NCBI RefSeq assembly: GCF_000967965.1
Contig: NZ_LACC01000009.1
Location: forward strand, 1 to 64,000
Source: Pseudomonas fluorescens
GTDB lineage: Bacteria; Pseudomonadota; Gammaproteobacteria; Pseudomonadales; Pseudomonadaceae
Direction of reading: 5' to 3'
DNA: 64,000 bases
The translations under genes were made by a program, and so were the position numbers. Shown one piece after another: positions 28,698 to 32,373 of this stretch; positions within the stretch are counted from its first letter, which is position 1, and each line of letters begins with the position of its first letter. The notes below the pieces were generated by a model. It was not told the DNA's origin. It was given only the letters and a program-made list of their open reading frames with translations, and searched no databases.

Positions 28698-29339
28698 TCA
28701 GAGGCTGGCGTCGACCATGCCATGACGAACCGCCAACAGCGTCAACTCGACATCACTGCTGATCGAAAGCTTTTCGAAGATGCGGTAACGGTAGGTGTTC
28801 ACGGTTTTCGGGGACAGGCACAATTTGTCGGAAATGATCTGCACTTTCTGGCAGCCAACGATCATCAGCGCGATCTGGATTTCCCGTTCCGACAAGGCAT
28901 CGAAAGGCGAATCGTTGGTGGGCTGGAAGGACTTGATCGCCAGTTGCTGGGCAATTTGCGGGCTGATGTAGCGTTGCCCGGCAAACACCAGGCGGATGGC
29001 CTGGACCATTTCCGGCAAACCTGCCCCCTTGGTCAGGTACCCGGCCGCACCGGCCTGCAACAGCCGAGTAGGAAACGGGTCCTCTTCACACACGGTCACC
29101 GCGACGACCTTGATATCCGGATGACTGCGCAATAATTTGCGAGTGGCTTCAAGACCGCCGATACCCGGCATCTTGACGTCCATCAGCACCACATCGGGTT
29201 TCAGCTCACGCGCCTTGAGCAGGGATTCCTCACCCGACTCGGCCTGGCCGACTACTTGCAGGCCATCGATGTCAGCCAGCATTCGTGTAATGCCTGTACG
29301 AACGAGATCATGGTCATCGACTACTAGCACCCTAATCAA
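28698..29339 (-). CDS. gacA: Response regulator GacA (TTG start)
   Basis: NarL/FixJ-type regulator of the Gac/Rsm cascade, which controls secondary metabolites and biofilm through rsmX/Y/Z RNAs. 213 residues: receiver domain with phospho-acceptor Asp54 ([10 protein letters not shown]) and C-terminal LuxR helix-turn-helix ([13 protein letters not shown], then [13 protein letters not shown]). The start codon is TTG (TTGATTAGGGTG), with GAGGTG upstream; the same rare start is, to my knowledge, known for gacA in fluorescent pseudomonads. The sequence looks intact; gacA is often mutated in laboratory lines. Confidence 0.97.
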
Positions 29340-29913: not shown

Positions 29914-30668
29914 TCCAGTTCCACCGCCAATACCTCCCCGGTCCAGCCCGCGGGATTGCGCCGGGCAACCACCATCAGGTTGCCAGTACCGGAGGCGGCC
30001 GCAATCAGCGAACCGTCCGACGCCCACACTGCGCTACGTCCTGCCGACTCCCAACCACCCGTTGCACCGCCATGGTTGGCCATCAACACCACCATCGAAT
30101 GGCCAGCGGCGTAGCCCTGCAACAAGGCGGTATCCGGGTCGTAGCCTTTTTCCGTGACCAGCACACCCGCAGCATATATGCCAGCGCCTTTCAGTGCGGC
30201 CAGGGCCGCATGATCGGCATGGTTGAAATCGGCGCACACGGACAACGCAATAGTATCCACGCCGATTGTCAGAGGCTCGCCTCCCGCTCCCGGCGCAAAT
30301 ACCACCTCCTCCCCCGGATGCAGATGTTGCTTGCTGTAGACCGCGAGAGAACCATCGGCGCCGAGTATCATCGCGCCAATCAGCACCGGCGATGTGTCCG
30401 TCAGCCGAATCGGCATGCCGACGACGGCCGTCACGCCGACCTCCTTGGCAAAATCACGCAGCGGTTGCAGTACGGCCGCGTCCGGCGCAACAGCCAATTG
30501 CGCCGCAAGCCCCCGTTCATATCCGGTCAGCGACAATTCAGGGAACACCAGCAATTGCACGCCCTGCTCCGCAGCCACCTGCAAGAAAAGTTGATGTCTG
30601 GCGATGTTGCCGGCGAGATCTCCGGCGATGGAGATCGATTGCGCGGCGGCGAGGGTCAGTGCCGTCAT
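29910..30668 (-). CDS. Carbon-nitrogen hydrolase (nitrilase superfamily)
   Basis: The start is MTALTLAAAQSISIAGD (252 aa). The Glu-Lys-Cys triad is complete: Glu in VFPELSLTGYE, Lys in VYSKQHLHPGEE, Cys in ALSVCADFNH. It hydrolyses an amide or nitrile; this group includes NIT2-like and N-carbamoyl or formamidase-like enzymes, and I cannot choose between them. It is coupled to the GNAT gene, which may act on the same metabolite. Confidence 0.85.
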   Translation of the reverse strand: MTALTLAAAQSISIAGDLAGNIARHQLFLQVAAEQGVQLLVFPELSLTGYERGLAAQLAVAPDAAVLQPLRDFAKEVGVTAVVGMPIRLTDTSPVLIGAMILGADGSLAVYSKQHLHPGEEVVFAPGAGGEPLTIGVDTIALSVCADFNHADHAALAALKGAGIYAAGVLVTEKGYDPDTALLQGYAAGHSMVVLMANHGGATGGWESAGRSAVWASDGSLIAAASGTGNLMVVARRNPAGWTGEVLAVELE

Positions 30669-30827
30669 GATGCGTCCTTGTGACGATATGTTTGTTGAAG
30701 CGCAGAGTGTGTCACAACCTTCGGGGCACTCAGGCGATAGAAAGTGCCTTCGTTGGCCGATAGCATTTTCTGATTGAATCTGCGTACCGGCCTCTAGTAA
30801 GCTCGACCCATCCATCGGAGACAGACC

Positions 30828-30956
30828 ATGTTCAACACCCTCTTACAGCTTCGTACCGCCAGCGCCCTGCGCTCGGTTGCGGCTGCCCGGGTGAACGACG
30901 GTTGTGCTCCGGTCAGTTTTTATTTTGGGTATTGGTTTAGCCACTGGCGCGCCTGA
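30828..30956 (+). CDS. Aromatic-rich leader peptide 1 (42 aa)
   Basis: ATG with GGAG nine bases upstream. Near its C-terminus it reads SFYFGYWFSHWRA: seven aromatic codons (3 Phe, 2 Tyr, 2 Trp) within ten (30918-30947). The stop lies about 48 bp before a perfect GC-rich terminator at 31004. This is the layout of ribosome-mediated attenuation: starvation for aromatic aminoacyl-tRNA would stall the ribosome and prevent the terminator from forming. The gene controlled is the DAHP synthase at 31294. Confidence 0.8.
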   Translation: MFNTLLQLRTASALRSVAAARVNDGCAPVSFYFGYWFSHWRA

Positions 30957-31003
30957 TACCCACACGGCGCCCACTTTAAACGGGTCGCCACCAGAGAATT
31001 CTC

Positions 31004-31042
31004 AACCCCCGGTCGGCCTCCCGACCGGGGGTTTTGTTTTTT
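31004..31042 (+). terminator. Attenuator terminator upstream of DAHP synthase
   Basis: 13-bp perfect stem AACCCCCGGTCGG / CCGACCGGGGGTT with a CCTC loop, followed by TTGTTTTTT. It sits between the first leader frame and the second, about 250 bp before the structural gene, so it must be bypassed for expression from an upstream promoter. Confidence 0.9.
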
Positions 31043-31091
31043 CAGCCCCAAGACTTTTAGCGACACACCAGACATTCAGAGGATTCAAAAC

Positions 31092-31244
31092 ATGAACTAC
31101 GCCACTTATTACCGTTACGACAGTTTTACCGCCTGGCGATTTACCACCCTCCGCTCGGGACAGCCTGCCGCCTCCGATCGGTCACCCACAGGTGGCAAGC
31201 ACACACACGCAGCCAATCCGGCCAATTGTCGAACACCCCAGTAG
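31092..31244 (+). CDS. Second aromatic-rich short frame (50 aa)
   Basis: ATG with AGAGGA upstream. The N-terminus reads MNYATYYRYDSFTAWRF: four Tyr, two Phe and one Trp in 17 codons; the remainder is ordinary. It ends 49 bp before the DAHP synthase ATG. A weak GCGGG / CCCGC hairpin (31255-31270) follows, without a U-tract. It may be a second regulatory leader acting by stalling or by translational coupling, distinct from the classical attenuator upstream. Confidence 0.6.
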   Translation: MNYATYYRYDSFTAWRFTTLRSGQPAASDRSPTGGKHTHAANPANCRTPQ

Positions 31245-31293
31245 GGCCGAGCGCGCGGGCACGAACCCGCCACCAGCCCAGGAAGCCTTGAAT

Positions 31294-32373
31294 ATGAACT
31301 CGTCCGTCTCTGCACTGCCGCTGTCCACCTTGAGCCCTGCCAATGAAGCGCTGACCCTGCGCCTGCCCAGCTCATTGCATCTCAAACAGCAATTGCCCCT
31401 CAGCAACGCCCTGACCCGGCAAGTCACCGCCCACCGTCAGGCGGTTCGCGCGATCCTCAACGGCGAAGATTCCCGCTTGCTGGTCATCGTCGGCCCCTGC
31501 TCGATACACGATCCGAAATCAGCTCTCGAATACGCCGGCAACCTTGCCCGCCTCTCCGCCGAAGTCAGCGACGAAATGCTGCTGGTGATGCGCGCGTACG
31601 TCGAAAAACCCCGTACCACGGTTGGCTGGAAAGGCCTTGCCTACGACCCGCACCTCGATGGCAGCGATGACATGGCCGCCGGCCTGACGCTGTCCCGCGA
31701 ACTGATGCGCGAAATGCTTCGCCTGGGTTTGCCCGTTGCCACTGAACTGTTGCAACCGATGGCGGCCGGCTACCTCGACGATCTGTTGAGCTGGGTGGCG
31801 ATTGGCGCCCGGACCACGGAGTCGCAGATCCACCGGGAAATGGCCAGCGGCCTGGGCATGCCGGTAGGGTTCAAAAACGGGACTGACGGCGGTGTCGGCG
31901 TCGCCAGCGACGCCATGCGCTCCGCCGCCCATCCCCATCGCCATTTCGGTGTCGATAGCCAGGGACATCCGGCGATCATCCAAACCATGGGCAATGCGGA
32001 CACCCACCTGGTATTGCGCGGCGGCCATCGCGGGCCGAACTACGACAGCGCCAGCATTGCCCAGGTGAACAGCGACCTGACCAGGCTCAGGATTCCGGCT
32101 CGAATCATGGTCGATTGCAGTCACGCCAACAGCGGCAAAGACCCGCTGCGCCAGCCAGCCGTGTTCCAGGAGGTACTTGAACAGCGTCTGCAAGGTGATC
32201 GTTCGCTGATCGGCATGATGATCGAGAGTCATTTATTCGAGGGCTGCCAGCCGTTGGGTTCGACACTACAATACGGTGTGTCGGTGACCGATGGTTGCCT
32301 CGGTTGGGCCGGGACAGAACAGTTGTTGCTTGAGGCGGCAGATCGGCTGCGAGCCTCAAACAACGCCCGATAA
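31294..32373 (+). CDS. 3-deoxy-7-phosphoheptulonate (DAHP) synthase, class I
   Basis: First step of the shikimate pathway: PEP plus erythrose-4-phosphate to DAHP. The start is MNSSVSALPLSTLSP, with CAGGAAG upstream; 359 residues, normal for AroF/G/H-type enzymes. Landmarks: VGPCSIHD (metal Cys), YVEKPRTTVGWKG (PEP-binding KPRT), IGARTTESQIHRE, GFKNGTDG and DCSHANSGK, with the metal ligands in the C-terminal half (ESHLFEG). Two aromatic-rich leader frames and a terminator precede it. Which amino acid inhibits the enzyme cannot be read with certainty. Confidence 0.95.
   Translation: MNSSVSALPLSTLSPANEALTLRLPSSLHLKQQLPLSNALTRQVTAHRQAVRAILNGEDSRLLVIVGPCSIHDPKSALEYAGNLARLSAEVSDEMLLVMRAYVEKPRTTVGWKGLAYDPHLDGSDDMAAGLTLSRELMREMLRLGLPVATELLQPMAAGYLDDLLSWVAIGARTTESQIHREMASGLGMPVGFKNGTDGGVGVASDAMRSAAHPHRHFGVDSQGHPAIIQTMGNADTHLVLRGGHRGPNYDSASIAQVNSDLTRLRIPARIMVDCSHANSGKDPLRQPAVFQEVLEQRLQGDRSLIGMMIESHLFEGCQPLGSTLQYGVSVTDGCLGWAGTEQLLLEAADRLRASNNAR

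Follow-up and report, generated by a model that had tools for sequence, protein, structure and literature searches.

Why should a single gene be preceded by two leader peptides that appear to read the same amino acids? DAHP synthase opens the pathway to every aromatic amino acid and is often engineered in bacteria for the production of aromatics. In the Pseudomonas fluorescens DNA that we analysed (GCF_000967965.1, NZ_LACC01000009.1, positions 1–64,000 of the forward strand; this whole stretch of 64,000 nucleotides is called the window below), the gene for such an enzyme follows two short, aromatic-rich reading frames with a terminator between them. The conservation of these two leaders in series suggests that aromatic supply is checked twice before the enzyme is made. 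On balance, we favor the view that they are two ribosome-read aromatic sensors placed in series before one DAHP synthase gene, the second of which acts on translation.

Architecture of the locus and the comparison set

All elements of the double leader lie on the forward strand. The enzyme (3-deoxy-7-phosphoheptulonate synthase, 359 amino acids, 31294–32373) was identified by its matches to PF00793 (257.7 bits) and TIGR00034 (439.3 bits), and sequence inspection places its Shine-Dalgarno (SD) element, AGGAAG, at 31280–31285. Upstream of it, the list of open reading frames gives leader ORF 1 (42 amino acids, 30828–30956) and leader ORF 2 (50 amino acids, 31092–31244). Neither leader peptide of the window has a Pfam or NCBIfam match up to an E-value of 1, leader 2 used as a query against plasmids gave no match, and a motif scan of the window found no promoter-like site at 30600–31400. 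Elsewhere in the window, a UvrY/SirA/GacA-family response regulator with a TTG start is encoded on the reverse strand (28698–29339; NF007018, 317.7 bits), and directly downstream of it lies a 607-amino acid ORF, which we take to be UvrC.

The locus was compared across 149 upstream regions from Pseudomonas, Halomonas and their relatives. These comprise 79 named loci (of the original 80, L073 was left out for having almost no upstream DNA), 60 chosen further loci of the genus, the window itself, and nine of 20 order-level places. In ten of the 119 genus genomes, the sole match seems to be of the paralogue type (best E 1e-113 to 1e-115), and this DAHP synthase is apparently missing, so the 60 loci were drawn from about 109; the set is not independent of the 79 named loci, as contigs of equal length (84457, 280946, 91601 and 87894 nt) occur in both, and some of the genomes are probably identical. 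The remaining 11 order-level DAHP synthases (50–54% identical) have neither a motif of the P15 type nor a W-R-F motif, the hallmarks of leaders 1 and 2 described below. Leader 2 was measured at 136 loci, with 127 distinct sequences among them. By type and length, these loci were divided into group A (92 loci, the fluorescens/putida type together with two outliers, L064 and L068, with a leader 2 of 45–54 amino acids except in L087), group B (30 loci of the citronellolis/stutzeri/Halopseudomonas type, 29–37 amino acids) and group C (14 loci of Halomonas and relatives). Across groups A and B, L087 aside, leader 2 ranges from 29 to 54 amino acids.

The second DAHP synthase of the P. fluorescens genome has no such leader in the upstream stretch inspected and no P15 match in an Rfam scan. 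A match to Rfam P14, a Pseudomonas sRNA, lies near the gene of this second enzyme (110.5 bits, L001:466–611, reverse strand). In another genome of the set (G025, C24:70148–71158), there is an additional DAHP synthase copy that is 61% identical to the enzyme of the window.

Leader 1 has the architecture of a transcription attenuator

The aromatic run FYFGYWFSHW of leader 1, in which the original prediction had counted seven aromatics in ten codons, is found at 30918–30947, and the 13-bp terminator expected behind the 42-amino acid frame is present at 31004–31042 as a hairpin with 13 counted pairs (31004–31033) and a T-rich tail. The Rfam model P15 (RF00627) matches the window at 30914–31031 over its full length (1–119 of 119), with 126 bits against a gathering score of 70 and an E-value of 1.7e-25. 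This match starts just ahead of the aromatic run, spans the internal helices and ends with the terminator stem.

An aromatic leader 1 frame precedes the enzyme in all 149 regions, 147 of which were detected by pattern; in the other two, L120 and L127, YWYS replaces YWFS, and P15 matches at 118.7 and 134.1 bits, respectively. Loss of the terminator in relatives would, by the original prediction, have weakened leader 1, and the comparison came out in its favor: of 16 relatives scanned with Rfam, ten match P15, a model that includes the terminator stem. Seven of these matches are above the gathering score and three (L064, L069 and L082) are under it. No P15 match was obtained up to an E-value of 0.01 in L060, L066, L070, L074, L076 and L079, all of which have leader 1 frames despite the missing match.

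When the RNA is ended at the 5′ arm of the terminator, a ribosome placed on the Phe/Tyr codons rearranges the minimum-energy fold; the paired fraction of this arm hardly changes with ribosome position (0.58, 0.52 and 0.53), and the complete terminator forms at equilibrium in every ribosome state that was folded. The P15 model, the terminator and the conserved aromatic codons support the assignment of leader 1 as a probable attenuator-type leader. Its architecture is that of an attenuator, and it presumably switches in response to aromatic supply. P15 has been considered a possible riboswitch, judged from synteny (in an excerpt of PMC2527527), and it appears by name only in an excerpt of PMC2375449. 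Although filed as an sRNA, P15 is best interpreted as the 3′ portion of a DAHP synthase leader-peptide transcription attenuator, and its re-filing in Rfam from sRNA to attenuator would follow.

Leader 2 is a conserved aromatic frame

The second frame was originally predicted from its AGAGGA site, its Tyr-rich start and its end 49 bp before the enzyme, and its coordinates agree with this description. Leader 2 of the window comprises the SD element AGAGGA (31078–31083), a frame that contains MNYATYYRYDSFTAWRF and starts with MNYATYYRYDSF, and a TAG stop 49 nt ahead of the enzyme ATG at 31294. By the prediction, loss of the frame or of its Tyr codons in close relatives would have reduced leader 2 to chance, and the comparison came out in its favor: leader 2 follows leader 1 in 143 of the 149 regions. 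It was detected by the pattern TGGCG.TT[TC], and Trp-Arg-Phe is therefore built into the detected set, whereas an unguided list of ORFs gives the same frames. In each of the 60 further genus loci, the W-R-F core falls within an ATG-started frame ahead of the enzyme, and an SD element of at least four bases precedes leader 2 at all 136 loci measured (where several in-frame ATGs were available, the one with the best SD was taken; a single ATG is found within 110 nt at 118 of the 136 loci).

The composition of leader 2 changes abruptly at this core. Up to and including W-R-F, aromatic amino acids account for 844 of 2358 residues (36%) at the 136 loci, and after it for 19 of 3937 (0.5%). The N-terminal codons display a pN/pS of 0.54–0.56 (61 distinct group A sequences), which points to moderate constraint on the residues that they encode; Tyr codons are frequent, and each is individually replaceable. 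Near the C-terminus, CGAACA(C/A) is present in 114 of the 136 tails, three times out of frame (in the window, CGAACAC occupies 31230–31236 and supplies an Arg codon as CGA). CGA accounts for 169 of the 203 Arg codons in the C-terminal part of leader 2, and its stop codons are TAG at 115 loci, TGA at 16 and TAA at five.

Leader 2 is missing from four named Salinicola contigs (L058, L060, L061 and L066) and from L151 and L152, which have kept leader 1 and constitute a natural single-leader comparison; in L058, L060, L066, L151 and L152, the enzyme is found close behind the leader 1 terminator. L153 carries a degenerate leader 2 that, read by eye, contains a W-R-F-N core and a single Tyr. In L087 (genome G046), a frameshift after a Gly-Gly block extends the leader 2 frame past the enzyme start, a natural variant that bears on the importance of the leader 2 stop. 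Judged from its conservation, leader 2 is very probably a functional translated aromatic leader.

Leader 2 ends next to the enzyme start region

In groups A and B (L087 aside), the leader 2 stop is separated from the enzyme ATG by 28–50 nt, and in group C by −4 to +7 nt at nine of 14 loci and by 28–44 nt at the other five; as enzyme starts were reassigned upstream at many loci, single distances can be off, and those of L069 and L072 are uncertain. Single-sequence folds of the interval between stop and SD contain a hairpin of −8 kcal/mol or lower at 118 of the 121 loci examined in groups A and B, with a mean z-score against dinucleotide shuffles of −1.99 in group A (79 sequences) and −2.96 in group B (24 sequences). 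In the window, this GC-rich hairpin (31244–31279) adjoins the enzyme SD, which is itself outside the hairpin. The five group C spacers show no hairpin signal relative to shuffles (mean z −0.26). RNAalifold returned no structure from the stop-to-SD alignments of group A or of groups A and B combined (energy 0.0) and only four pairs from that of group B, and the case for the hairpin is thus made by the single-sequence folds and the shuffles.

A scan of the window found no U-tract terminator on the forward strand between 31092 and 31294, and leader 2 therefore probably acts after transcription. Considering (i) the absence of such a terminator and (ii) the tie of the leader 2 stop to the enzyme start region, a translational second step is plausible, and we lean slightly towards leader 2 acting on translation of the enzyme.

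A switch in which leader 2 governs sequestration of the ribosome binding site (RBS) was examined by folding and found no support. The RBS opening energy in group A does not depend on ribosome position (5.63 vs 5.74 kcal/mol, 45 loci), and a ribosome at the leader 2 stop makes access worse at 16 of these loci and better at 14, which lends no support to translational attenuation in its classical, sequestering form. The shift in group B is 1.2 kcal/mol, with a ribosome at the stop being worse for the enzyme (16 of 25 loci; the opposite holds at four). Over four ribosome states, the probability that the enzyme SD is unpaired is 0.34–0.42 in group A and 0.44–0.52 in group B; in group C, represented by few loci, the SD is more open with a ribosome at the stop (0.57 vs 0.31). 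The proposal that transcriptional control is followed by translational control thus stands in part: the serial conserved leaders agree with it, and folds of the main Pseudomonas group show no ribosome-dependent change at the RBS.

The same geometry would suit a coupling of leader 2 to the enzyme, with ribosomes reinitiating at the enzyme start once they have translated leader 2 and with the hairpin bringing stop and SD together in Pseudomonas. Aromatic shortage would then lower translation per transcript, as a brake or a quality check. Stop and start overlap or lie at most 7 nt apart at nine of the 14 group C loci, and the hairpin may make the distance spatially short at those loci of groups A and B that have it (118 of 121), both of which are in keeping with coupling. 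However, its sign is opposite to that of ordinary feedback and to that of leader 1, the L087 frameshift carries leader 2 beyond the enzyme start, and the enzyme SD is already partly unpaired in the group A and B folds (0.34–0.52). We consider coupling unlikely, and tentatively prefer the reading in which ribosomes at the end of leader 2 hinder, rather than feed, initiation at the enzyme.

Leader 2 contains a near-invariant Trp-Arg-Phe core

The core of leader 2, TGGCGATTTA(C/G)C, occupies 31134–31145 in the window and encodes Trp-Arg(CGA)-Phe(TTT)-Thr/Ser. TGGCGATTTA is present at 135 of 136 loci, L057 being the single variant, with CGC for CGA; the two bases that follow are GC, CC or GT, and the residue after W-R-F is Ser or Thr at all 136. 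Leader 2 had been predicted to read mainly Tyr, a view at odds with a near-invariant part that is TGG CGA TTT and with L153, where the core is kept alongside one Tyr.

The core is specific about its codons as well. Its Arg is CGA at 135 of 136 loci, and its Phe is TTT at 136 of 136. In the enzyme gene, counted over the first 900 bases at 76 loci, CGA serves for 58 of 1735 arginines and TTT for 16 of 260 phenylalanines; for Phe elsewhere in ORF 2, TTT is used in 45 of 96 cases. Conservation of the core therefore exceeds what the peptide requires, in codons that are rare in the enzyme gene. No conserved intramolecular pairing partner of TGGCGATTTAGC was found at a fixed place in groups A, B and C, the best partner bin holding 13 of 88 distinct sequences in group A, 6 of 29 in group B and 6 of 14 in group C.

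The exact core occurs three times in the P. fluorescens genome and is leader-like only at leader 2. The second copy overlaps the end of a 492-amino acid ORF, presumably ArgH, and the third is inside a 353-amino acid ORF resembling a membrane protein. A looser core pattern gave too many matches for a verdict in nine order-level genomes. At most loci, TGG..TTT followed by A is common to both leaders (TGGTTTA in leader 1, TGGCGATTTA in leader 2), which may reflect an old duplication or a common RNA-level constraint.

Such features would also be expected if the core were a nucleic-acid signal, be it a ribonuclease or pause site or the target of a protein or sRNA, to which the aromatic codons are secondary. 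Ten near-invariant nucleotides in rare synonymous codons, the lack of a conserved partner within the RNA, the persistence of the core in L153, where the Tyr codons are nearly gone, and the TGG-TTT-A of leader 1 at most loci all point this way. Against this, the core shares its reading frame with an ATG that has an SD element ahead of it at 136 of 136 loci, and the aromatic codons precede the core in bulk, making this explanation a rather improbable one.

The constraint might otherwise reside in the peptide. TnaC and SpeFL are arrest peptides that sense ligands, and leader 2 could, by analogy, sense a free aromatic metabolite via W-R-F-S/T and shut the enzyme off in excess. Every leader 2 has Arg between Trp and Phe (the pattern demands it, and six of the 149 regions are without leader 2), Ser or Thr comes next at the 136 loci, and the one-Tyr relative L153 keeps W-R-F, there followed by Asn. 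However, the Arg and Phe codons are also fixed at their synonymous positions, which a peptide motif does not need, and the stretch ahead of the core varies in length and sequence. We give an arrest peptide little credence and tentatively prefer to see in the core a set of codons that would be decoded slowly when aromatic amino acids are short.

A candidate pseudoknot follows the core

A 21-codon block that extends from the core to the Gly-Gly block is gap-free in most of groups A and C and is absent from group B. A helix scan of 71 distinct 63-mers yielded, as the two longest helices, stem 1 (31151–31181, where 31151–31158 pairs with 31174–31181) and stem 2 (31167–31196, where 31167–31172 pairs with 31191–31196), and these two helices cross in the manner of an H-type pseudoknot. 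Before the scan, four of the 108 sequences (L071, L074, L076 and L155) had been dropped for having no GG(C/T)GGC end at that place; by virtue of this filter, conservation of the 3′ arm of stem 2 is partly built in.

Covariation was evaluated with 41 of the 71 sequences, which differ by more than three bases. The outer pair of stem 1 takes six standard pair types and is paired in 40 of the 41 sequences, and three further pairs of this stem display double changes, although one of these, the fourth pair (31154/31178), is non-standard in 27 of 41. In stem 2, where 99.2% of the cells are paired, variation is largely confined to a single pair (G-U, A-U, G-C). The two-stem structure has a covariation score of 0.120 and 93.9% of its cells paired; a control slid by +3 columns scores nearly the same (0.114), but only 59.9% of its cells are paired. 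Stem 1 alone exceeds its slides (0.160 vs at most 0.078). The column covariation scan is noisy, and its top pair in group A is the outer pair of stem 1. We thus describe this element as a candidate H-type pseudoknot with covariation, located after the leader 2 core in groups A and C.

Eight nucleotides separate stem 1 from the core Phe codon ahead of it so that, given the usual ribosome dimensions, a ribosome that has CGA in its P site would just make contact with the stem. The pseudoknot is not essential, for group B lacks the block and L074 has it in altered form. A fusion of leader 2 and the enzyme by frameshifting at the pseudoknot was considered and rejected: all three possible offsets between the two frames occur (remainders 0/1/2 at 34/27/31 loci in group A, 11/7/12 in B and 1/6/7 in C), and the enzyme frame is closed between the core and the ATG at 102 of 136 loci.

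A proposed model for two-stage control of DAHP synthase

We propose the following model, in which the direction and steps of leader 2 action are tentative. At leader 1, a ribosome held at the Phe/Tyr/Trp codons would allow RNA polymerase to pass the terminator. Leader 2 would then sit on the read-through transcript and be translated there. When aromatic aminoacyl-tRNA is ample, ribosomes would cross leader 2 and linger at its slowly read end (the rare CGA codons and, in most cases, TAG), where, being next to the enzyme start region, they would hinder initiation. This hindrance would be direct at most Halomonas-type loci, in which the stop touches the start, and would be exerted in Pseudomonas via the stop-proximal hairpin region. 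When Tyr, Trp or Phe is short, ribosomes would stall further upstream, on the Tyr-rich stretch and on the W-R-F core (and, in two lineages, against the pseudoknot as well), and would leave the enzyme start free. The two stages would multiply, giving a steep response. Because occlusion would be relieved by stalling, its sign is as expected of feedback.

In its full form, the model holds that the same amino acids are read twice, at transcription and then at translation by a new kind of leader, that the core meets the pseudoknot at ribosome distance, and that the speed of decoding at three codons, not an RBS-sequestering switch, sets the synthesis of the enzyme. We put this forward as possible, at rather less than even chances. 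A ribosome on the leader 2 stop alone would not reach the enzyme SD in Pseudomonas, and overlap of stop and start more often signifies coupling, with the opposite sign, both of which argue against occlusion. Pure codon sensing does not fully explain a constraint on the core at the nucleotide level without a pairing partner, and six relatives live without leader 2.

Leader 2 might instead control Rho-dependent termination, with ribosome cover of its distal part deciding whether Rho loads. The distal part contains more C than G in groups A and B (C 0.35–0.38, G 0.19–0.25, compared to C 0.35 and G 0.29–0.32 in the gene), and no intrinsic terminator follows leader 2. Yet the excess of C over G reaches only the 76th (A), 82nd (B) and 64th (C) percentile of gene windows, and stalling would expose the Rho site rather than hide it, which is the wrong sign for feedback; this explanation is improbable. 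It is highly improbable that leader 2 arose by chance and has no function, for although short ORFs are common, nothing further was found in favor of chance, and the conservation in 143 of 149 regions, the sharp aromatic boundary and the placement of SD and stop all contradict it.

If true, the double leader that we propose would explain a steep, supply-dependent response of one gene, and engineers who swap only the promoter or only lift feedback inhibition would miss it. Leader 2 would also provide a clean, testable case of codon constraint at the nucleotide level together with a pseudoknot in a leader, and one accessible in harmless laboratory strains.

Comparison with known leader systems

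In excerpts of PMC2965389, no such double-leader case is described, and PA1750 appears in other contexts in excerpts of PMC4263517 and PMC7857532. A literature search conducted mostly outside subscription journals found no leader peptides described before a Pseudomonas DAHP synthase and no two serial leaders before any DAHP synthase. Within that literature, the original remark that this layout is not known as a described one holds.

Leader 1 covers positions 1–119 of the P15 model (RF00627), which Rfam types as a gene. Attenuators of the E. coli trpL/pheL type consist of a short control-codon ORF, internal helices and a U-tract terminator, and the operons that carry them are known with one leader each. 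Leader 1 resembles them in all three elements (names as in an excerpt of PMC11802643), whereas leader 2 is without a U-tract terminator.

In Corynebacterium glutamicum, the DAHP synthase operon aroF is preceded by aroR, a leader containing Phe-Tyr-Phe at which Phe limitation leads to ribosome stalling and a reported enhancement of transcription (excerpts of PMC11802643 and PMC4046766); the pair is also treated in an excerpt of PMC8632094. The likeness to our locus is an aromatic leader peptide ahead of a DAHP synthase. In contrast, aroR is one leader in an unrelated lineage, and these excerpts mention no second leader, W-R-F or pseudoknot.

The LEU element of Actinobacteria, as portrayed in an excerpt of PMC1262725, combines a control-codon leader ORF and a candidate pseudoknot ahead of a biosynthetic gene, as leader 2 may do in groups A and C. 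Its codon run pairs with the SD of the gene as a base stem, whereas the W-R-F core, scanned as 12 nt, has no conserved partner; it responds to leucine and not to aromatics, and a serial attenuator is unmentioned in that excerpt.

In ermB, control is by erythromycin-induced translational attenuation and not by amino acid supply, and a terminator between its leaders ermBL and ermBL2 is unmentioned in the excerpt of PMC8274638 from which this description comes. What ermB has in common with the DAHP synthase locus is the presence of two leader peptides on one gene.
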